Notes under the pieces: generated by a model
Seen by the model: only the letters and a program-made list of their open reading frames with translations
Told to the model about the DNA's origin: nothing
Database searches by the model: none
Shown: in pieces, positions 38,539 through 61,802 of the stretch
Position numbering within the stretch: position 1 is the first letter of the stretch
How the letters are laid out: each line of letters opens with the position of its first letter
Program-made: the position numbers and the translations under genes
Source of the DNA: an uncultured Dehalococcoidia bacterium
GTDB taxonomy: Bacteria; Chloroflexota; Dehalococcoidia; Lucifugimonadales; GCA-2712585
DNA length: 64,000 nucleotides
Direction: 5' to 3'
Assembly (NCBI GenBank): GCA_958295715.1
Contig: OY282371.1
Span: forward strand, 1,597,697 to 1,661,696

Positions 38539-40410
38539 ATGCACGTTGTAGGCACAGCCGGCCACGTGGACCACGGCAAGTCCACCCTCATAGAGGCCCT
38601 CACCGGCATCAACCCCGACCGTTTGCCCCAAGAGAAGGAACGGGGGATGACCATCGACTTGGGGTTTGCCTGGCTCACCCTGCCCACGGGACAGGAGATA
38701 AGCATTGTCGACGTTCCCGGCCACGAACGCTTTGTCCGCAACATGCTGGCCGGGGTCGGCGCCATAGACTTGGCCCTGCTGGTGGTGGCCGCCGACGAGG
38801 GGGTTATGCCCCAGACCAGGGAGCACCTGGCCATTCTTGACCTGCTCAAAATCAAACGGGGGCTGGTGGCCATAACCAAGGCCGACCTGGTGGACGAGGA
38901 GTTCCTGGAACTGGCGACGGTGGAGACGGAGGAGGCCCTCCGAGGAACCGCGTTGGAAGGCGCGCCGCTGAAGGCCGTGTCCGCGCGCACGGGCCAAGGG
39001 CTGCAAGACCTGCTGGAGGAGATGGGGCGGATACTCTCATCCGCGTCGCCGCGCCAGGACCTGGGCCGCCCCCGCCTGCCGGTGGACCGGTCCTTCACGG
39101 TGGCCGGCTTCGGGGCCGTGGTCACGGGAACGCTGATAGACGGCTCCCTCTCCGTGGGACAGGAGGTGGAGCTGGTCCCGTCGGGCCGGCGATGCCGCAT
39201 CCGGGGCCTCCAGACCCACCGCCGCAAGGTCGAGACGGCGGACCCGGGCCGGCGCCTGGCGGTGAACCTGTCCGGCGTCTCCTACGATGAGATCCGGCGC
39301 GGCGAGACGGTCACGGCCCCCCGGTGGCTCAAACCCACCACCATGATTGACGCCAAGGTGAGGCTGATAAGCGACGCCCCCAGGCCCATGAAGCACAACG
39401 CCCGCGTAACGTTTCACGCATTGGCCAGCGAGACAGCGGCCCGCGCCCGGCTCCTGAGCGCCCGGGAACTGCTGCCCGGCGAGGAGGCCTGGGCGCAGAT
39501 TCACCTGGCCGAACCCGTCCCCCTAGTGAAGGGCGACTTCTTTGTCATTCGCTCCACGGAGACCACCCTTGGCGGCGGCGCGGTGGTGGACCCCTTCCCC
39601 CGGCGCCATCGCCCCTTCGCGGCCGCCGCCCTCGAAAGCCTGGCGGCCATGGAGAAGGGGAGCCTGGAGGACCTGGTCCTGGGCGCGGTGAACCGGTGGG
39701 GGCCTTGCGACCTTACGGCCTTGTCCCGGCGCAGCAACCTAACCCTCTCCGACGTTCAGACCATCGTGTCCAAGCTGGCGGCCACAGGCGACGCCCTGCT
39801 GCTCGGAGGCTCCAAGGCGCGGGCCAACTCCGTGGTCTACTCCGCCCACGGGTGGGAGGGCCTGAAGAACCGGGTTGAGGCCATCCTGAACGAGAGCCAC
39901 CAGCAATTCCCCCTTCGCAGGGGGATGCCCAAGGAGGAGCTTAGGAGCCGCCTCGGTCTCACCGCCGGGGTGTTCCCCCAGATCTTGGCGCGACTGGCAG
40001 AGGAGGGGGCCATGGTGGAGGAAGGCTCCTTGGCGCGGTCCCAACGGCACAAGACGACCCTCAGTCCCGAACAGGAGCGGCAGGCCCAGGAGTACCTGAC
40101 GGCCCTGGAATCGGAACCCTTCTCTCCACCCACGGACGCGCGGATAACCAAGGAGCTTTTGGCGGCCCTTGTGGATGACAACAGGGTGGTGAAGGTGGCC
40201 GAGTCGGTGGTGTTCTCCGCATCGGCCTACCGGCAAATGGTGGAGGCCATAACCGGACACATCAGGCAGAACGGCAGCGTCACGGTGGCCGAAGCGCGCA
40301 CCCTGTTGAACTCCAGCCGCAAGTACGTGCTCCCCCTTTTGGAGTGGCTGGACCAGCAGCGCATAACCCGGCGCGTAGGCGACCAACGGACGTTGAGGCA
40401 GTCCCAATGA
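38539..40410 (+). CDS. selB: Selenocysteine-specific elongation factor SelB
   Basis: The 623-residue GTPase starts MHVVGTAGHVDHGKSTLIEAL and contains KERGMTIDLGFAW (switch I), DVPGHERFVRNM (switch II) and ITKADL. EF-Tu-like domains II and III come next, then winged-helix repeats at the C-terminus (about 430-620) that bind the SECIS hairpin in mRNA. SelB brings Sec-tRNA to in-frame UGA codons. This is functionally linked to the selenoprotein gene at 54820-55104. The stop overlaps nurA by 4 bp. selA, selC and selD are not in the window. The 104 bp upstream hold no clear promoter. Confidence 0.95.
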   Translation: MHVVGTAGHVDHGKSTLIEALTGINPDRLPQEKERGMTIDLGFAWLTLPTGQEISIVDVPGHERFVRNMLAGVGAIDLALLVVAADEGVMPQTREHLAILDLLKIKRGLVAITKADLVDEEFLELATVETEEALRGTALEGAPLKAVSARTGQGLQDLLEEMGRILSSASPRQDLGRPRLPVDRSFTVAGFGAVVTGTLIDGSLSVGQEVELVPSGRRCRIRGLQTHRRKVETADPGRRLAVNLSGVSYDEIRRGETVTAPRWLKPTTMIDAKVRLISDAPRPMKHNARVTFHALASETAARARLLSARELLPGEEAWAQIHLAEPVPLVKGDFFVIRSTETTLGGGAVVDPFPRRHRPFAAAALESLAAMEKGSLEDLVLGAVNRWGPCDLTALSRRSNLTLSDVQTIVSKLAATGDALLLGGSKARANSVVYSAHGWEGLKNRVEAILNESHQQFPLRRGMPKEELRSRLGLTAGVFPQILARLAEEGAMVEEGSLARSQRHKTTLSPEQERQAQEYLTALESEPFSPPTDARITKELLAALVDDNRVVKVAESVVFSASAYRQMVEAITGHIRQNGSVTVAEARTLLNSSRKYVLPLLEWLDQQRITRRVGDQRTLRQSQ

Positions 40411-41621
40411 GCCTCAACCTCGGCAAGACGGCTCAACAAATTGAGGGCTTTGCCCACAGTCTGAAAGGCGCGCAGAACGACCGCTCCCGGCGGCTGTCCG
40501 AGGCCGTGGACGCCATGCGGCGGGCGGCCCCGGAGGAGGTGCGGGCCAAGCAGAGCGGCCCCGCCGCCCAGCGTCGCTTCCTCTACGCCGTGGCGGGGGA
40601 GGGCCTCGGCGCGAGCCACCCGCCCAAGAGCGCGCCGGGGAACTTCTGCGTCCTGTCGGTGGACGGCTCCCACATCGACGTTGACCGCCACATGCCGGCG
40701 GCCTGCGCCCTCGTCAACATCGGGGGATGCGTCCTGCGGTACGGCGACGACCCCGACGCCTACCTGTACAACGAGCCGAGCCTCTACTCCGACGACCGCC
40801 TGTATCTGACGGAGCAGACGCCGGAGGGCGCCACGGAGATACCCATTGAGGGCGCCATCCTGGGACTCATGCGCACGGTGGAAGAGGTGAAGGCCCTGGC
40901 GCCGTTAATCCGAGACAAGGCCCCGGCGGACGCGCCCACCCTGGCCCTGCTGGACGGCTCCCTCATCCTGTGGGCGCTGGCGGGCCAGGGCTACCCGGAG
41001 CTGGTGCGGACGGAGATTATCCAAAGGGGCCTGACGCCGGCCCTTGACGCCCTCCGCGAAATGTCCCGCCGTCGCGTCCTTGCCCTGGCCGCCTACGTGA
41101 GCCTGCCCCGCAGCCGCGAGGCGGCCAACGCCCTGCGCCTTCACCTCTGCGAATTCGACTCCGCCGAGTGCAAACGGGTATGCCGCCCCCGCCGCTCCCC
41201 CCACTCTCCGTGCAGCATGGTGAACCACCTGCTTGATAGGGAACTGTTCGAAGAGCTTCTGGCGCCGGGGCAGCGTTCCTGCCTATTCTCCACCAACTCG
41301 TCCATCGTGGATGAGTACGGCCGGGGCCACCGCATATGCTTCTACTACCTGCACACCGGGGAGGAGGTGGCGCGGGTGGAGATGCCGGAGTGGGTGGCCC
41401 TCGACAAGGCCCTCCTCTCCCTGACCCACACCCTCATTCTGGACCAGACCCGCCGCGGCATGGGATACCCGGTGGCCATATCCGAAGCCCACGAACAGGC
41501 CGTCATCGGCGGCGGCGACCGCCGGACCTTCCGCGAACTGGTGGACCGCTCCCTGGTCCGCCGGGGTATGTCCATATCCGGCTCGGAGAAAAGCCGCTCC
41601 AAACGGATGGCGTGGGTCTAG
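40407..41621 (+). CDS. nurA: NurA-domain nuclease
   Basis: From ATG 40407, overlapping the selB stop (ATGA), the protein has 404 residues. NurA motifs are visible: SVDGSHID near residue 84, LLDGSLI near 180 and ISEAHE near 357, giving the acidic residues of the RNase H-like active site. NurA is a 5'-3' exonuclease that works with the HerA translocase in resecting double-strand breaks in archaea; a HerA gene lies two genes downstream in the same overlapping operon, which strongly supports the call. A cluster of cysteines near 250-275 (CEFDSAECKRVC) is unusual and may bind metal. Confidence 0.88.
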   Translation: MSLNLGKTAQQIEGFAHSLKGAQNDRSRRLSEAVDAMRRAAPEEVRAKQSGPAAQRRFLYAVAGEGLGASHPPKSAPGNFCVLSVDGSHIDVDRHMPAACALVNIGGCVLRYGDDPDAYLYNEPSLYSDDRLYLTEQTPEGATEIPIEGAILGLMRTVEEVKALAPLIRDKAPADAPTLALLDGSLILWALAGQGYPELVRTEIIQRGLTPALDALREMSRRRVLALAAYVSLPRSREAANALRLHLCEFDSAECKRVCRPRRSPHSPCSMVNHLLDRELFEELLAPGQRSCLFSTNSSIVDEYGRGHRICFYYLHTGEEVARVEMPEWVALDKALLSLTHTLILDQTRRGMGYPVAISEAHEQAVIGGGDRRTFRELVDRSLVRRGMSISGSEKSRSKRMAWV

Positions 41622-42205
41622 TGGGGCCGGCCCAAGGGCGCATTGGCGAGGTGGTGGAGGCCTCCTCCCGCCGGTGCGCGGTGCAGTGCTACCGGCTGTA
41701 CGAATCGCCGCCTCTCGGCGCGTTGGCCCGCGTCGGCGACCCGCCCGTGTACGCCCTCATAACGGAGGTGTCCACCGAGGCCTTGGACCCGGGCAGGCCG
41801 GTCATCGCCAGGGGTGAGGACGCGGCCACCGTGGAGGAGGTGTACCGCAGCAACCCTCAGCTGGACAAGCTGCTGTGCACCCGCTTGAGATGCCTAATCG
41901 TGGGCCACTTACGGGACGGGGCGCCGGTGGCCGGACTCCCGCCGCTGCCGCCCAAAATCCACTCCTTCGCCCACCCCTGCCCGGCGGATGAGGCGGAGGC
42001 CCTGGTATCGTCCCCCGACTTCGCGCGCCTTCTCCTCAACAGCGACCTGCCGTCCCCCGACGAGGTCATCGTGGCCTGCCTGCGCCTGGCCGGCCGCCAA
42101 GCCGCCGACGGGCAGGGCCTGCTTCACCGCGCCGGGAACGCCCTAGCTCGGGAACTATCCGACCAGGTTCCCCGGCTCAACGCTATCCTAAGGAGGCTGA
42201 CGTGA
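41621..42205 (+). CDS. HAS-barrel-like protein between nurA and herA
   Basis: The GTG at 41621 shares one base with the nurA stop, giving 194 residues that end with a 4-bp overlap into herA. Longer open frames start inside nurA and lack support. The N-terminus (RIGEVVEASSRRCAVQCYRL and PVYALITEVSTEALDPGRP) resembles the HAS-barrel that starts HerA proteins; the rest is helical (LPPKIHSFAHPC then DEAEALVSS). I do not know a name for it. Its place suggests a third subunit or loading factor for the NurA/HerA machine. Confidence 0.75.
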   Translation: MGPAQGRIGEVVEASSRRCAVQCYRLYESPPLGALARVGDPPVYALITEVSTEALDPGRPVIARGEDAATVEEVYRSNPQLDKLLCTRLRCLIVGHLRDGAPVAGLPPLPPKIHSFAHPCPADEAEALVSSPDFARLLLNSDLPSPDEVIVACLRLAGRQAADGQGLLHRAGNALARELSDQVPRLNAILRRLT

Positions 42206-43851
42206 GCGTTGACGGCCCCTTGGGCGAACCCCTGGGGATGGTGGTTGAAGGCTCCCTGAGCCGCGGCGTGGAGGTGCGGCTGAACCCCGGGGTGTCGGTG
42301 GAGGAGATACAGGAAGGCGTCTACGTCACCATCAAGGGGGAGAGGCGCCTGTTCTTTGGCATGGTGACCGACGTTAGCCTGGGGTCGTCGGACCCGCGGC
42401 TCGCCCAGTCCCCGCCCGACGTGAGCGACCCCTTCATCGCGCGGATAGTGTCGGGGGCCGTGACCTACGGCGCCCTTTCGGTCATGCCCATGCTCACCAT
42501 GCCGCCCGTTCTCGGCGACGAGGAGAAGCCGCAGCCGGCCAAGACCGTTCCCGCTCACTTCTCCATCACCCACAGGGCCTCCCAGCGAGACATGGAGGTG
42601 GTCTTCGGCAAGGAGGACAGCAGCCGCTTCTACATCGGCAATCCCCTGGACATGGAGGCGCAGGTCTGCCTGAACGTCGAGGAGCTGGTTAAGCGCTCCA
42701 CCGGCGTCTTTGGCAAGAGCGGAACGGGGAAGACCTTTTTGACCCGGCTCCTGCTTGTGGGCATCCTCCAGCGAGACGTAGCCTCCAGCCTCATCTTCGA
42801 CATGCACAACGAGTACGGCTGGGCCGGCCAGGACACGGACAGGAACCGGCAGGTGCAGGGGCTGAAGCAGTTGTTCCAGTCAAAGGTGTCGGTGTTCAGC
42901 CTAGACCCGGAAAGCTCCATCCGCCGTGGCTCAAAGATGGACTTCGAGGTGCAGGTGGGCTACGACGAGGTGGAGCCCGCCGACGTGGAGCTTCTGCGGC
43001 AGACCCTAAACCTATCGGAGGTGGCGGCGGCGGCGGCCTACGACCTTGAGCGCAAGTTCGGTCGTAAGAAGTGGCTGCAAGCGTTCCTTGGGCTGGCCGG
43101 ACGCCAGGAGGTCTACGAACTAGCCAACGAGATTGGCGTCAACACCGCCGCCCTCGCGACCCTGCACAACCGGCTGTCCCAACTTAAACGGTACGCCTTT
43201 ATGAAGCCCAGGGCCCTGGACGACTCGGTGAAGCGGATACTGGAGCGACTGGACCAGGGCGTCCACGTGGTCTTGGAGTTCGGCCGCTACGGGAGCAACC
43301 TGAGCGCCTATATCCTGGTGGCCAACCTGCTCACCCGCCGCATACATCAACGTTATGTTCAGCGAACTGAGGCCGCCGAGGGCGGGTCCGGCGCGGCGCC
43401 CCGTCCCCTGGTCATCTGCATTGAGGAAGCCCACCGGTTCCTCAACCCCAACATCGCCTCCCAGACCATCTTCGGCGACATCGCGCGGGAGCTGCGGAAG
43501 TACAACGTGACCCTGATGGTGATAGACCAACGGCCCAGCGCCATCGACTCGGAGGTGATGAGCCAGATAGGCACCAAGGTTACCTGCTCCTTGGACGATG
43601 AGCGGGACGTCGACGCCACTCTGTCCGGCGCGCAGGGACGCCGGGAGTTGCGGTCCGTGCTTCAGAAGCTGGACCCCAAGCAGCAGGCCCTGGTCTTCGG
43701 CCACGCCGTGCCGCTGCCCGTGGTGGTGCGAATCCGGGAGTACGGCGCCGGGGGGTCCTTCCAGGACCTCACCCGCCCCAAGTGGCAGGAGGGCGGCTAC
43801 GGCCCCCCCACGGATGAGGAGCTTGACGAGCAGCTAAAGGCCCTGGACTAG
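42202..43851 (+). CDS. herA: HerA-type DNA translocase
   Basis: The 549-residue ATPase has an N-terminal HAS-barrel (about 1-90), Walker A GKSGTGKTF near 171, Walker B LVICIEEAHRFLNP near 403-416 and an arginine-finger region IGTKVTCSLDDERDVDATLSG. HerA hexamers pump DNA into NurA for end resection. Genes overlap throughout selB-nurA-HAS-herA, so translation is coupled. The last 75 bases are repeated downstream at about 44123-44200 in degraded form as part of a tandem duplication. Confidence 0.93.
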   Translation: MSVDGPLGEPLGMVVEGSLSRGVEVRLNPGVSVEEIQEGVYVTIKGERRLFFGMVTDVSLGSSDPRLAQSPPDVSDPFIARIVSGAVTYGALSVMPMLTMPPVLGDEEKPQPAKTVPAHFSITHRASQRDMEVVFGKEDSSRFYIGNPLDMEAQVCLNVEELVKRSTGVFGKSGTGKTFLTRLLLVGILQRDVASSLIFDMHNEYGWAGQDTDRNRQVQGLKQLFQSKVSVFSLDPESSIRRGSKMDFEVQVGYDEVEPADVELLRQTLNLSEVAAAAAYDLERKFGRKKWLQAFLGLAGRQEVYELANEIGVNTAALATLHNRLSQLKRYAFMKPRALDDSVKRILERLDQGVHVVLEFGRYGSNLSAYILVANLLTRRIHQRYVQRTEAAEGGSGAAPRPLVICIEEAHRFLNPNIASQTIFGDIARELRKYNVTLMVIDQRPSAIDSEVMSQIGTKVTCSLDDERDVDATLSGAQGRRELRSVLQKLDPKQQALVFGHAVPLPVVVRIREYGAGGSFQDLTRPKWQEGGYGPPTDEELDEQLKALD

Positions 43852-46902: not shown

Positions 46903-47763
46903 ATGACCACCGCCACCGCCTACAAGGAAAGATTTATAATCGTGAACAACGTCCAGCTGCGCTGCCTGGACTGGGGAACGGAGGGCAAGCCGGCCATGAT
47001 TTGTATGCACGGGCACACCGGCCAGGCCCACATTTGGGACGAGTTCGCCCTGGCCATGTCGCCCCACTACCACGTGCTGGCGGTGGACCAGCGGGGCCAC
47101 GGAGGCAGCGGCTGGGCCGTCGACGGCTACGCCCGGGACCGGTTCGTGGAGGACCTGGCCGCCCTCATCGACAGGTTGGAACTCAAGCGGGTGACCCTGG
47201 TGGGCCTGTCTATGGGCGGGTGGAACGCCCTGCTCTACGCCGCCGAGCGCGCGGGCATGGCGGACGTGACGGTCGACAGGATTATCATCGTGGACATTGC
47301 GCCGGAGCGCAGCGACGCCGCCCTGCAAGAGCAGACGAACCGTCCCCCCACCCCGTTGCAGTTCTACACCCTGGAGGAGGCCTTCGCGTGGGCGCGGGCG
47401 GGCAACCCCTGGGCCGACGAGGCCCGGCTCCGCAAGGACATGGCCAACAGAATCGAGCAGCGTCCAACGGGAAAGTGGGCTTGGAAGGCCGACCCGGTCC
47501 TTTTCAACAGCGTCCTGCCCGACAACCAGGACCCCAAGCACATCGCCCGGTACTGGCGGAGCCTGGATACCATCACCTGCCCAATCCTGGAGGTGCGGGG
47601 CAAAGAGAGCGTCCTGGTGTCCGACGACATCATCGAGCGGATGAAGAAGGCCAACGACAAGTTCAGCTCCGTGGACGTGGAGGACGCCGGCCACGTGGTG
47701 ACGGTGGACAAGCCCCAGGAGTTCATAGCCGCCACCAAGGGGTTCCTGGGGGTTGAGGGCTAA
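46903..47763 (+). CDS. Alpha/beta-fold hydrolase
   Basis: From ATG 46903 (GAGGA 9 bp upstream) the protein has 286 residues. The oxyanion region is MHGHTGQAHIWD, the nucleophile elbow GLSMGG has Ser near residue 102, and the catalytic His lies in DAGHVVTVDKP near the C-terminus. The acid is likely Asp or Glu in the LEVRGKESVLVSDD segment. It looks like an epoxide hydrolase/esterase-type member with unknown substrate. A repeat-rich region without genes follows. Confidence 0.88.
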   Translation: MTTATAYKERFIIVNNVQLRCLDWGTEGKPAMICMHGHTGQAHIWDEFALAMSPHYHVLAVDQRGHGGSGWAVDGYARDRFVEDLAALIDRLELKRVTLVGLSMGGWNALLYAAERAGMADVTVDRIIIVDIAPERSDAALQEQTNRPPTPLQFYTLEEAFAWARAGNPWADEARLRKDMANRIEQRPTGKWAWKADPVLFNSVLPDNQDPKHIARYWRSLDTITCPILEVRGKESVLVSDDIIERMKKANDKFSSVDVEDAGHVVTVDKPQEFIAATKGFLGVEG

Positions 47764-47867
47764 GGGAGGCGGCGCCCTCCCGTCATCCCCGCTCCCCCCT
47801 CTCGTCAAGGGGCCTCCGCCTAACCGCCATTCCTGGCCCCTTATCCGTCACTCCCGCCCCCCTTTCC

Positions 47868-48252
47868 GTCATTCCCGCGCAGGCGGGAATCCATCCCCGC
47901 CCCCGCGCGTCATCCGGCGGGGCGATACCTGTGGCCGCCCTCCGGACCTGGCCCACGCACACCCGCCTCCCTTTCCGTCATTACCGCGCCTCCTATCGTC
48001 ATTCCCGCGCAGGCGGGAATCCATCCCCGCCCCCGCGCGTCATCCGTAGGAGCGTCCCTTGTGGGCACCCTACGGACCCGGCCCACGCCCACCCACCTCC
48101 CTTCCCGTCATTCCCGCCCCCCTCCGTCATTCCCGCGCAGGCGGGAATCCATCCCCGCCCCCGCGCGTCACCCGTAGGAGCGCTCCTTGCAGGCGGCCTC
48201 TGGCCCTAGCCTGCCGCTTCCTTTCCGTCATTCCCGCGCAGGCGGGAATCCA
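47868..48252. repeat. Four-copy tandem array of about 128-bp units, each starting with a dRS3-like hairpin
   Basis: Hairpins ATTCCCGC-GCAG-GCGGGAAT begin at 47871, 48001, 48129 and 48230. The first three are followed by the same tail (CCATCCCCGCCCCCGCGCGTCA) and by a longer shared sequence before the next hairpin, giving periods of 130, 128 and 101 bp. The core matches the ATTCCC-N8-GGGAAT form of Neisseria dRS3 repeats. No gene lies in 47764-48390. Confidence 0.85.
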
Positions 48253-48394
48253 GGAAGCCTTCATCCCAAAACCAGCGTCTCAAACCCCGCGTCACCCGAA
48301 GGCGCCACCCTAACGCGGGTCTGGCCGTAACAAGACTAGCTCTTACTGGCGCTTGCGCCATCGTGCGATTGCCTTGGGGTAAAAGAGGGGAAAG

Positions 48395-48950
48395 ATGGAT
48401 TCCCGCCTGCGCGGGAATGACGGATGGGGTGAGGCGGTGAGCCGCCCGCCCGCCGCCACTCTCCCCTGACGAGAGGGGCGGTGTGGTTGCGCGGGGATGG
48501 CGGGAACGCCACTCTGTTTCGTGAAACGTTGGCCTTGGTATGTAGGGTTCCTGGATTCCCGCCTTCGCGGGAATGACGGAAAGGAAGGGGGTGGGAGTCA
48601 GCAGCCCAAAACACAGAACCAGCGCTCTTCAAAACAAAGTGGGCGCACGCGCCCTTCCCGCCTGCGCGGGGATGGCGGGAACGCCACTCTGTCTCGTGAA
48701 ACGTTGGCCTTGGGATGTAGGGTTCCTGGATTCCCGCCTGCGCGGGAATGACGGATGGAGAGGCGCGGAAATCCACTCCCCGCCTACCAATTCAGCGCCG
48801 GTGAGCCGCCCGCCCCCCGCCACTCTCCCTTGACGAGAGGGGCGGTGTGGTTGCGCGGAGATGGCGGGAACGCCACTCTGTTTCGTGAAACGTTGGCCTT
48901 GGGATGTAGGGTTCCTGGATTCCCGCCTGCGCGGGAATGACGGAAAAGGG
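48395..48950. repeat. Higher-order composite repeat array with dRS3-like hairpins
   Basis: Inverted-orientation hairpins ATTCCCGC-CTGC-GCGGGAAT lie at 48399, 48555 (CTTC loop), 48730 and 48919. Three copies of a roughly 90-bp segment (about 48491, 48664 and 48854) contain GGGAACGCCACTCTG and TTTCGTGAAACG, each leading into a hairpin. A second hairpin GGGCGCACGCGCCC occurs at about 48642, and a longer 363-bp duplication is marked by GAGAGGGGCGGTGTGGTTGCG. Region 48951-49109 has only weak repeat debris. I see no gene here. Confidence 0.8.
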
Positions 48951-51149: not shown

Positions 51150-51645
51150 CTCGTCATTCCCGCGCAGGCGGGAATCCAGGAAGCGCCCAATGCAGAACCA
51201 ACGCTCCTCAAAACTAAGTGGGCACGCGTGCCCTTCCCGCGAAGGCGGGAATCCAGGAAGGCCCCAACCCGGAACCAGCGCCTCGAATCCCGGCGTCACC
51301 CCTTGCCCCATTCCCGCCCCCTTCCGTCATTCCCGCCCTCCTTTCCGTCATTCCCGCGAAGGCGGGAATCCAGGAAGGCCCCAACCCGGAACCAGCGCCT
51401 CGAATCCCGGCGTCACCCCTTGTGGGCGCTCCCCCCTTCCCCCTTGACGAGCGGGGTGGCCTTCAATGGTCTGGCCGTAACGGGGATGGCCGCCGCCGGC
51501 GATTCGCGCCCTTCCCCTAGCGTAGTAGAGGGGAGAAGATGGATTCCCGCCTTCTCGGGAATGACGGACATCTAACGCGCAGAGCCAACGCTCTTCAAAA
51601 CTAAGTGGGCGCACGCGCCCTTCCCGCCTGCGCGGGAATGACGAA
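51150..51645. repeat. dRS3-like hairpin cluster with duplicated composite unit
   Basis: Hairpins occur at 51156, 51233 (partial), 51350, 51543 and 51621, with GCAG, GAAG, CTTC and CTGC-type loops. A segment with CCAGGAAGGCCCCAACCCGGA and CTCGAATCCCGGCGTCACCC is present twice (about 51250-51303 and 51370-51422). The GGGCACGCGTGCCC and GGGCGCACGCGCCC hairpins at about 51221 and 51608 differ by compensatory changes. No gene is seen in 51047-51774. Confidence 0.82.
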
Positions 51646-54374: not shown

Positions 54375-54660
54375 CCTTTGGGGAAGGGCACGAGCGCCCA
54401 TTTTTGTTTTGGGGAGCGGTGGTTCTGCGCGCTAGATGTCCGTCATTCCCGCCTTTCCCTCTTTTCCGTCATTCCCGCGCCCCCCATCCGTCATTCCCGT
54501 GAAAACGGGAATCCATCTTTCCCTCCTTCCACCGGATGGACAGACCATCCAACCGTCACGGCCTCAACTCTTAATCGGATGCGTCAGCGCGCGCCGATAC
54601 GCGGTTACCCCGGCGCAACAAGGGGGGAGGGGATGGATTCCCGTCTGCGCGGGAATGACG
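54375..54660. repeat. dRS3-like hairpins and composite repeat fragment
   Basis: Hairpins lie at 54493 (ATTCCCGT-GAAA-ACGGGAAT) and 54637 (ATTCCCGT-CTGC-GCGGGAAT). A degraded copy of the composite segment (GGGCACGAGCGCCC, then TTTTGTTTTGGGGAGCG) occurs at about 54386-54425. The stems differ by paired changes (GC/GC against GT/AC), which supports an RNA or DNA hairpin role. No gene is seen in 54328-54758. Confidence 0.78.
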
Positions 54661-54758
54661 GAATGGGGGCGGGAATGGGGCAAGGGGGCGGGGGTTTGGC
54701 CATAAGCGGCGGTCCTACGGATGACGCGCGGCTTAGGCGAGGCCCGGGGCGAAAAGCG

Positions 54759-54787
54759 CAGGCCCACCTCGTCGCAAGGTGGGCCTG
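54759..54787 (-). terminator. Likely intrinsic terminator of the selenoprotein gene
   Basis: An 11-bp perfect inverted repeat CAGGCCCACCT / AGGTGGGCCTG with a 7-nt loop lies 33 bp after the stop of the selenoprotein gene. Reading on the minus strand it is followed by CGCTTTTCG, a short T run, so it can act as a terminator, though the T tract is weak. Confidence 0.65.
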
Positions 54788-54819
54788 CTTCTGGGTCGCT
54801 TCGGTTGTGGGTTGGGGCG

Positions 54820-55104
54820 TTAGACGGCCTTGGCCTCTTCCGCCTCTATCTCGTCGAGCTTCTCCTGGATGACGTTCTTCATCTGGCGCACCCGGGTCAG
54901 GTCGGGGTACTTCCCGTCCTCCTCCGAGCGGTCGAAGATCTTGTCGCCGTTAAGGTAGACTTCCAGGCGGCCGTTGGCCCCCGGAGTGAGTGATACGCCG
55001 GCGTTGTTGCCGAAGTACCTAAAGAACTCGTTCGCCAGCCACGTGGCGGTGGCGTGGTACTGTCAAGGAACGCAGTAAACAATGTCGATATTCAGTTTCC
55101 ACAT
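54820..55104 (-). CDS. SelW-like (Rdx family) selenoprotein with in-frame TGA
   Basis: Reading TGA at 55065-55063 as selenocysteine gives one 94-residue protein beginning MWKLNIDIVYCVPU. This is the CxxU redox motif of SelW/Rdx proteins at its normal position (C11, U14). The rest matches the family: ATWLANEFFRYFG, VSLTPGANGRLEVYLNGDKIFDR and KYPDLTRVRQMKNVIQEKLDEI. GGGAG lies 8 bp before the ATG. The gene ends with TAA and a terminator hairpin. A hairpin sits just after the TGA. SelB is encoded 14 kb away, so decoding capacity is present. Rdx proteins are small thiol oxidoreductases. The reading depends on the UGA being decoded; otherwise a 13-residue peptide results. Confidence 0.88.
55035..55057 (-). 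promoter_or_regulatory. Candidate bacterial SECIS hairpin
   Basis: Five bases after the TGA codon, the mRNA can fold CCA-(bulge C)-GCCAC, loop CGCCAC, GUGGC-UGG, an 8-bp stem with one bulge. Its loop lies about 15-20 nt after the UGA, and a G is present among the first two loop positions, as in other bacterial SECIS elements. The coding sequence through it is also the Rdx protein sequence. I judged folding by eye only. Confidence 0.6.
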
Positions 55105-55161
55105 AGCGAGTCTCCCTATAGGCGCAGTATTCCGGCCCCGTTGGTTGAGCCGGTAACTTAC

Positions 55162-55261
55162 AGTTTAGCTTCAATGCGGTGAGTGTCAAGGGGTTGGCCC
55201 ACAGGTTGGCCCACAGGTTGGAAGGAATGCCTTGACACCCGCCGCCCGTTGGGGGTAGCAT
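55162..55261. promoter_or_regulatory. Divergent promoters for the selenoprotein and protoglobin genes
   Basis: Plus strand: TTGACA (55232-55237), 18 bp, TAGCAT (55256-55261), toward protoglobin. Minus strand: TTGACA (55189-55184), 16 bp, TAAACT (55167-55162), toward the selenoprotein. The two -35 regions form an inverted repeat GTGTCAAGG / CCTTGACAC. Between them GGTTGGCCCACA is repeated in tandem (about 55191-55219), a possible activator or repressor site shared by both genes. Confidence 0.65.
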
Positions 55262-55294: not shown

Positions 55295-55834
55295 ATGACC
55301 TCATCTCAAGCGCGAATGATAGACTGGCCGAACAGGGTCAGAGAGGTTATGCGGTACGTGGGACTGACGGAGGACGACCGCGGCCGGATAAAGTCCACCG
55401 GCCCCATCGTGAGGAGATACGCGGACCGCTTGACCACCGAGGTTTACGACCTCATCTTCGAGTTCCCGGAGGCTGGCAAGTTCTTTTCGCTGGACGACGG
55501 CAGCCCCGACCCCAAGCGCGTTCAGGACAACAAGGACTCGATGGTCCAGTGGCTGCAATACCTGTCCCAAGCCCCCACCAACGACGCCTTCGCCCGGTAT
55601 CTGGCGGCCGTGAGCGCCATGCACCGGGACATTCCCATCCACCGGCCTGGGCTTCCCCCCGTGCCCTACCAGTTCGTAATAGGCACCATATCCTTCTACC
55701 AGACGCGGTTGCTGGAGATTTTCCGGGAGGAGTTGGGAGACGACGCCCAGGCGGCGCGGGCCAGCGCGTCGTGGAACAAGATTCTGATGGTGTCGCTAGA
55801 CGCGCTGCTAGGGGCCTACATGGTGACATCCTAG
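55295..55834 (+). CDS. Protoglobin-like haem protein
   Basis: The 179-residue protein resembles single-domain protoglobins (globin-coupled sensor type). It has TGPIVRRYADRLTTEVYDLIFEFPEAGKFF at the start and SAMHRDIPIHRPGLPPVPYQF near 107-126, which holds the probable proximal histidine (H110 or H116). Such proteins bind O2, CO or NO and act in gas sensing or detoxification; no output domain is attached. It shares a divergent promoter region with the SelW-like redox selenoprotein, which suggests common regulation. Confidence 0.85.
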   Translation: MTSSQARMIDWPNRVREVMRYVGLTEDDRGRIKSTGPIVRRYADRLTTEVYDLIFEFPEAGKFFSLDDGSPDPKRVQDNKDSMVQWLQYLSQAPTNDAFARYLAAVSAMHRDIPIHRPGLPPVPYQFVIGTISFYQTRLLEIFREELGDDAQAARASASWNKILMVSLDALLGAYMVTS

Positions 55835-55946: not shown

Positions 55947-56027
55947 CCTTTGGTTCGCCCCGTGGTTGGAGCCGTGGGTAGGATGTTAATGGGGCGTTGA
56001 TGCCTTGTCAACGGAGAGAGCATCCCC

Positions 56028-56490
56028 TATCCGTCATTCCCGCCTCTCCTATCCGTCATTCCCGTGAAAACGGGAATCCAGGAAGACCCCAACCCAAAAC
56101 GGCCACTGTGTCGCTATCATGCACTCGCCTACCCCCGCTCCAACCTGGAGTTCTGTCAAAGGAGAACCATGGCCCCGGAAGAAAACCGGCGAAGATGGAT
56201 TCCCGCCCTCTTATCCGTCATTCCCGCGCAGGCGGGAATCCATCCCCTCTTGACGTTGCGCCGGGCCAACCGCGTCACGGCGCGCGCCGACGCATTCGAT
56301 TAAGCGTTGAGGCCCGTGATGGTTGGATGGGCTGTTCATCTGACGAGAGGAGGGAAGATGGATTCCCGCCTGCGCGGGAATGACGGATAGGAGGTAGGCG
56401 CAGGCGGGAAGGGCGCGTGCGCCCACTTATGTTTTGAAGAGCGTTGGTTCTAGTTGTGGTGTTCCTGGATTCCCGTTTTCGCGGGAATGA
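56028..56490. repeat. dRS3-like hairpins and composite repeat
   Basis: Hairpins lie at 56058 (GTGAAAAC core), 56220 (GCGCAGGC), 56362 (inverted, GCCTGCGC) and 56469 (inverted, GTTTTCGC). GGGCGCGTGCGCCC at about 56409 followed by CACTTATGTTTTGAAGAGCG is the composite element seen elsewhere in reverse order. The gap 55947-56543 holds no gene I can support. Confidence 0.8.
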
Positions 56491-56543
56491 CGGATAGGAG
56501 AGGCGCAGGCGGGAATCCAGGGATGGCCGGGAGGGGTGGCGGG

Positions 56544-56572
56544 TTGACACCTTGGCCCGCGTATCCTTTAAT
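56544..56572 (+). promoter_or_regulatory. Promoter of the small gene and amidase
   Basis: TTGACA (56544-56549), a 17-bp spacer and TTTAAT (56567-56572) make a near-consensus housekeeping promoter 38 bp before the small gene at 56610. It is the best promoter match in the right half of the window. Confidence 0.75.
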
Positions 56573-56609
56573 CTAGCCAACCGCCCAGACCATTCGCAGG
56601 AGCGACCGT

Positions 56610-61040: not shown

Positions 61041-61690
61041 CATTCCCGTTCCTCCCCTCCGTCATTCCCGTGAAAACGGGAATCCAGGAAGGCTACATCG
61101 CTTTCACAGGCCCGACCGTAATGGCCTGCCTTTGCCGGATGGCGGCCTCCCCTCTCCTATCCGTCATTCCCGCGCAGGCGGGAAGGGCGCGTGCGCCCAC
61201 TTCTGTTTTGAAGAGGGCTGATTCTGCGTCGGCGGCTCTTGGCGGCGCCCGCCTCAGCGCAAACAGGCCCCTTGGCCTTTCCGCCCTCTCCCATCCGTCA
61301 TTCCCGTGAAAACGGGAATCCAGGAAGGCTACATCGCTTTCACACGCCCGACCGTAATGGCCTGCCTTTGCCGGATGGCGCCTCCCCTCCTATCCGTCAT
61401 TCCCGTTCCTCCACTCCGTCATTCCCGCGCAGGCGGGAATCCATCTTATCCGGTTCTCTTTTAACGCCATCGTCCTCTTTTGACAGAACGTCGAGTTGGG
61501 GCGGCAGGTTGGGCCAGGGGTATGAGAGCGACACAATGGCCGTTTTGCTCTGTGGCCTTCCTGGATTCCCGTTTTCACGGGAATGACGAATGGGGGCGGG
61601 CGTGACGACGGGAGAAGGCGCCTGGGTTTGCGGCAGCAGGTTGGGAATGGGAGGGGGGATGGATTCCCGCCTTCGCGGGAATGACGGAAA
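61041..61690. repeat. dRS3-like hairpin cluster with duplicated composite unit
   Basis: Hairpins at 61064, 61300 (both GTGAAAAC core), 61166 (half site), 61421, 61565 and 61663. The unit from about 61056 to 61140 (hairpin, then GGAAGGCTACATCGCTTTCACA and a pseudo-coding stretch with CCTGCCTTTGCCGGATGG) is repeated at about 61292-61380. GGGCGCGTGCGCCC at 61186 belongs to the composite element. The gap 60895-61802 holds no supported gene. Confidence 0.82.
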
Positions 61691-61802
61691 GGGCGCGGGA
61701 ATGACGAATAGGGGGGCGCGTGGTAAGGAGTGATGGGGGGCGGGCGGGAACGCCGGGCGGGGATGCGTTATGCCAACGGTGTGGTAGAATGCGGCCAAGG
61801 CC

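Follow-up and report, generated by a model that had tools for sequence, protein, structure and literature searches.

The selW-like gene described here lies on the minus strand of the window, i.e., the whole 64,000-nucleotide stretch of DNA that was analyzed, and is divergent to a protoglobin gene. The features of this locus, together with the selB gene, are as follows.

38539–40410, plus strand: selB, Sec-specific elongation factor with winged-helix domains (profile matches)
54758–54788, minus strand: GC-rich 14-bp hairpin 3′ of selW, resembling a terminator but with few T in its tail
54820–55104, minus strand: selenoprotein gene of the Rdx family, selW-like, ATG start, 94 codons and a TAA stop, predicted Sec at codon 14
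55033–55048, minus strand: stem-loop 14 nt downstream of the TGA (stem of 5 bp, loop CGUGGC), candidate bacterial SECIS
55063–55065, minus strand: in-frame TGA of the CVPU motif, predicted selenocysteine codon (translation, conservation, and alignment with Cys homologues)
55112–55117, minus strand: AGGGAG, ribosome binding site seen in the sequence, 7 nt 5′ of the ATG
55162–55189, minus strand: selW promoter TTGACA-16-TAAACT, sigma-70-like, conserved in two relatives
55232–55261, plus strand: protoglobin promoter TTGACA-18-TAGCAT, sigma-70-like, with a counterpart in two relatives
55295–55834, plus strand: single-domain protoglobin gene, divergent to selW (Pfam E 1.8e-21)

Translation of 54820–55104 with TGA read as U yields 94 residues (MWKLNIDIVYCVPUQYHATATWLANEFF...AKAV, followed by the stop) and contains one TGA, at codon 14. 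The table 11 ORF list of the window holds no gene spanning these positions, in agreement with the preliminary description, which had proposed that the in-frame TGA hides the gene from standard calling; its minus-strand location was absent from that account. Three other ORFs in the window likewise combine an in-frame TGA with a Cys at a distance of three residues. Among these four, the selW-like ORF is the only one that, by eye, resembles a real protein, the other three having a low-complexity or antisense look. The ribosome binding site that had been reported is present, as are both divergent promoters. Sigma-70-like promoters are found twice in the region versus 0.2 times in shuffled sequences. 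The GC-rich hairpin 3′ of the gene, previously called a terminator, is indeed very stable (z −5.75), but it misses the terminator pattern because its tail has only four T.

The read-through protein matches the Pfam Rdx (SelT/SelW/SelH) family with an E value of 1.4e-15 (57.7 bits versus a cut-off of 22.6) and the TIGR02174 model (CXXU_selWTH) with 43.2 bits versus a curated cut-off of 34.2. Together with the translation, these matches bear out the earlier claim of a clean 94-residue Rdx protein with a rightly placed CxxU: C11-V-P-U14 sits after the strand of residues 4–11, which corresponds to the CxxC/CxxU site located after the first strand in this family. Both motif columns (C11 and U14) are invariant across 25 aligned sequences when U is written as C, and U14 aligns with the Cys of Cys-type Rdx proteins, as had been anticipated from a comparison with Rdx families. 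The AlphaFold2 model, built with 25 sequences, has a mean pLDDT of 89.5 and places C11 and position 14 in the segment that joins strand 1 to helix 1. A Foldseek search with this model returned SelW-related bacterial structures and mouse SelW (PDB 2npb) as the top matches, and the selW product is thus predicted to adopt the thioredoxin-like SelW fold. The bacterial SelW-related Rdx structures (PDB 2fa8, 2p0g, 2obk, 2oka, 2ojl, and 3dex) resemble it in both fold and CxxC/U position; however, 2ojl and 2p0g, the chains whose alignment was inspected, have a Cys where the selW product would have Sec. Mouse SelW, which has Sec in its CxxU motif, shows the same fold with a TM score of 0.77, yet shares only 19% sequence identity.

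Conservation across the TGA was compared among public genomes and within the order. TGA occupies the same codon in each of the nine closest loci (9/9), which come from public genomes with Dehalococcoidia, Chloroflexi, or SAR202 in their titles. An Rdx gene is present in 156 of the 197 genomes of the order. SelB scores above the cut-off in 176 of the 197, and its presence therefore does not discriminate between the Rdx types. Among the Rdx matches listed, genes contain either no internal stop or exactly one, which is always TGA; Cys is found in a minority of them. Relatives from across the order share the TGA at this codon, and within the family it is present in all 10 Rdx genes of the seven genomes. 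Downstream of the TGA, differences from three relatives in the read-through frame are mostly synonymous, with pN/pS values of 0.24, 0.21, and 0.17. These observations bear on one alternative, namely that a TGC or TGT Cys codon reads as TGA through a sequencing error or a recent nonsense mutation, leaving an ordinary Cys Rdx gene or a pseudogene. Although Cys homologues do occur in the same order, the TGA is conserved at codon 14 in many separately assembled genomes and the sequence downstream of it is under purifying selection; base error and pseudogene were ruled out for these reasons, and this alternative retains virtually no probability. The misread base that the preliminary description had named as its own refutation is therefore not what the independent genomes show.

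Two other arrangements of Rdx genes were observed. In one family of the order, a Cys-type and a Sec-type Rdx gene form tandem pairs spaced by a few hundred bases (L047–L051; genomes G159, G191, G189, G185, and G157). At locus L036 (G020:C10:159865-160432), the first of two tandem Rdx genes has CVPU and the second reads RYSLSDGYL, lacking both Cys and Sec at the site; in this genome, SelB falls below the cut-off. The selW locus gave no match in a comparison with plasmids.

The host genome (2.4 Mb, with an estimated completeness of 97%) contains the entire machinery for Sec. SelB, which had been reported in the same window, is matched there at 350 bits, and selA, selC, and selD, absence of which would have spoken against a selenoprotein, are all found in the genome: selA is matched at 541 bits, selD at 368 bits, and selC, a tRNA-Sec with anticodon TCA, was found by both ARAGORN and Rfam. 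The tRNA-Sec gene (L001, G000:C1:481677-482110) immediately follows a thioredoxin gene that has no internal stop. The selD gene (L011, G000:C1:70120-71043, minus strand) has an in-frame TGA of its own in the N-terminal active-site region (NCAGUASK) and, judging from this motif, is itself a candidate selenoprotein gene.

The selenoproteome was sampled by family, with four redox families checked in the same genome. Six further genes, peroxiredoxin-, thioredoxin-, and DsbA-like, have a single TGA exactly at the position of a redox-active cysteine, including five of the eight AhpC/TSA-family genes.

L084, L085, L086, L087, and L088, G000:C1 near 1816693, 2261534, 1483691, 201628, and 93716: TPGU and TGGU (peroxiredoxins), and WUGC, WUPAC, and YCUINC (thioredoxin-like)
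L089, G000:C1:995342-995818: DsbA-like, TUPFV, TGA at the active-site position

With SelW and SelD included, the candidate selenoproteins of the genome number at least eight, further support for the view that Sec decoding is active. A second alternative holds that the TGA is read as Cys, Trp, or Gly through a genome-wide code change or plain readthrough. It draws on the fact that the evidence consists of the frame and its conservation, so that the inserted residue itself is a prediction. Against it, selA, selB, selC, and selD are all in the genome, TGA occurs at redox-active positions of several unrelated genes, and TGA is the terminal stop of 12 of the 33 window genes. Since TGA is an ordinary stop elsewhere, the selW TGA represents local recoding rather than a changed code, which was ruled out by this stop usage; as a whole, the alternative is highly improbable.

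Regarding the hairpin that had been described after the codon, a stem is present directly downstream of the UGA, and its apical loop CGUGGC contains G, so its existence stands. Exceptional stability does not: compared with dinucleotide shuffles, the hairpin is unexceptional (z −1.29). Against synonymous shuffles, the candidate SECIS region of the window gene reaches a z of −2.53. Of the 36 Sec genes, 35 allow a stem in the same or a slightly displaced register, with some pairing-preserving changes; a comparable stem is also possible in 12 of the 20 Cys homologues. The mean folding z against synonymous shuffles is −0.95 after the TGA in the 36 Sec genes, compared with −0.10 to −0.42 for control stretches further downstream and −0.55 for Cys homologues; the folding bias after the TGA is moderately above that of the controls and Cys homologues. 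The downstream hairpin of selW is compatible with a bacterial SECIS and likely serves as one, a candidate with modest statistical support. In eukaryotes, including the contrasting case of mouse SelW, the SECIS is located in the 3′ UTR (PMC1088965).

Collectively, the gene almost certainly encodes a SelW-like member of the Rdx family, a thioredoxin-fold oxidoreductase with selenocysteine in CxxU, whose UGA at codon 14 is decoded by the Sec machinery. Its family, its fold, the presence of the machinery, and a conserved, protein-coding character that extends across the TGA were computed directly. From these we infer that Sec is actually inserted, that the hairpin acts as a SECIS, and that a redox reaction takes place on a substrate, as follows. 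SelD would supply selenophosphate and SelA would make Sec-tRNA(Sec), with which SelB would decode the UGA at codon 14, presumably helped by the short hairpin just downstream. The U14 selenol and C11 would then most likely act in thiol/selenol-disulfide exchange, with low-molecular thiols or protein partners as substrates.

In the alignment of the neighboring protoglobin with the globin-coupled histidine kinase 5ohe, His110 of the former corresponds to His99 of the latter, the position of the proximal haem ligand. The divergent selW–protoglobin pair occurs in three of the seven family genomes, i.e., the host, G050, and G067, and the protoglobins of the latter two share 74% and 60% identity, respectively, with that of the host. 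The TTGACA boxes and the GCTAAACT of the selW promoter are identical in all three. The preliminary description had read the divergent promoters as a hint at a joint redox or gas response. The arrangement itself is confirmed, and its conservation in three of seven genomes fits shared expression but falls short of proof, so joint regulation is possible. A stronger version, compatible with the SelW-like selenoprotein reading and adding to it, is that selW forms one unit with protoglobin and shares an O2/NO response through a common intergenic regulator. The conserved pair with both promoters in G050 and G067 speaks for it. However, the two −35 boxes lie at varying distances from each other (42, 33, and 17 nt) and therefore no shared operator is evident, none being seen in the intergenic regions of the three genomes compared; moreover, four of the seven family genomes have a Sec Rdx without protoglobin, although three of these four are incomplete. 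Such a unit is rather unlikely. More doubtful still is the idea that some members of this Dehalococcoidia/SAR202 family use the pair as a functional module, in which an O2/NO-binding haem protein and a selenol reductase for the resulting oxidized or nitrosylated thiols would be under shared control. The open-access literature searched contained no relevant paper joining selenoproteins with protoglobin, nor any joining selenoproteins with SAR202.

Marine surveys (Sargasso Sea and GOS; PMC1088965, PMC2398784) have found SelW-like Sec proteins to be more abundant than any other bacterial selenoproteins, and the selW product is thus another member of a known family; the mechanism itself is also already known. 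The survey proteins are likewise CxxU members of the SelW family from marine bacteria, with a stem-loop after the UGA. They are, however, metagenome fragments, whereas the present gene lies in a near-complete genome with the machinery and a protoglobin neighbor. For the type found most abundant in marine surveys, it provides a host genome equipped with the complete Sec machinery; standard-code gene lists of this lineage miss several redox enzymes.

Elsewhere in the window, selB is followed by a NurA-domain gene and then by an ATPase-like gene (42202–43851, HerA-like by eye), within 40344–43851. Repeated intergenic elements are present in many copies and in both directions (47750–48780, 51190–51620, 54440–54680, 56000–56600, and 61240–61800) and give spurious ORFs reading RHSRAGGNPS or VIPAQAGIQE. 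Positions 1–29000 hold what by eye is a long defence-like cluster, with restriction-modification-like subunits, an SNF2-like helicase, and an OLD-like ATPase beside a UvrD-like helicase.
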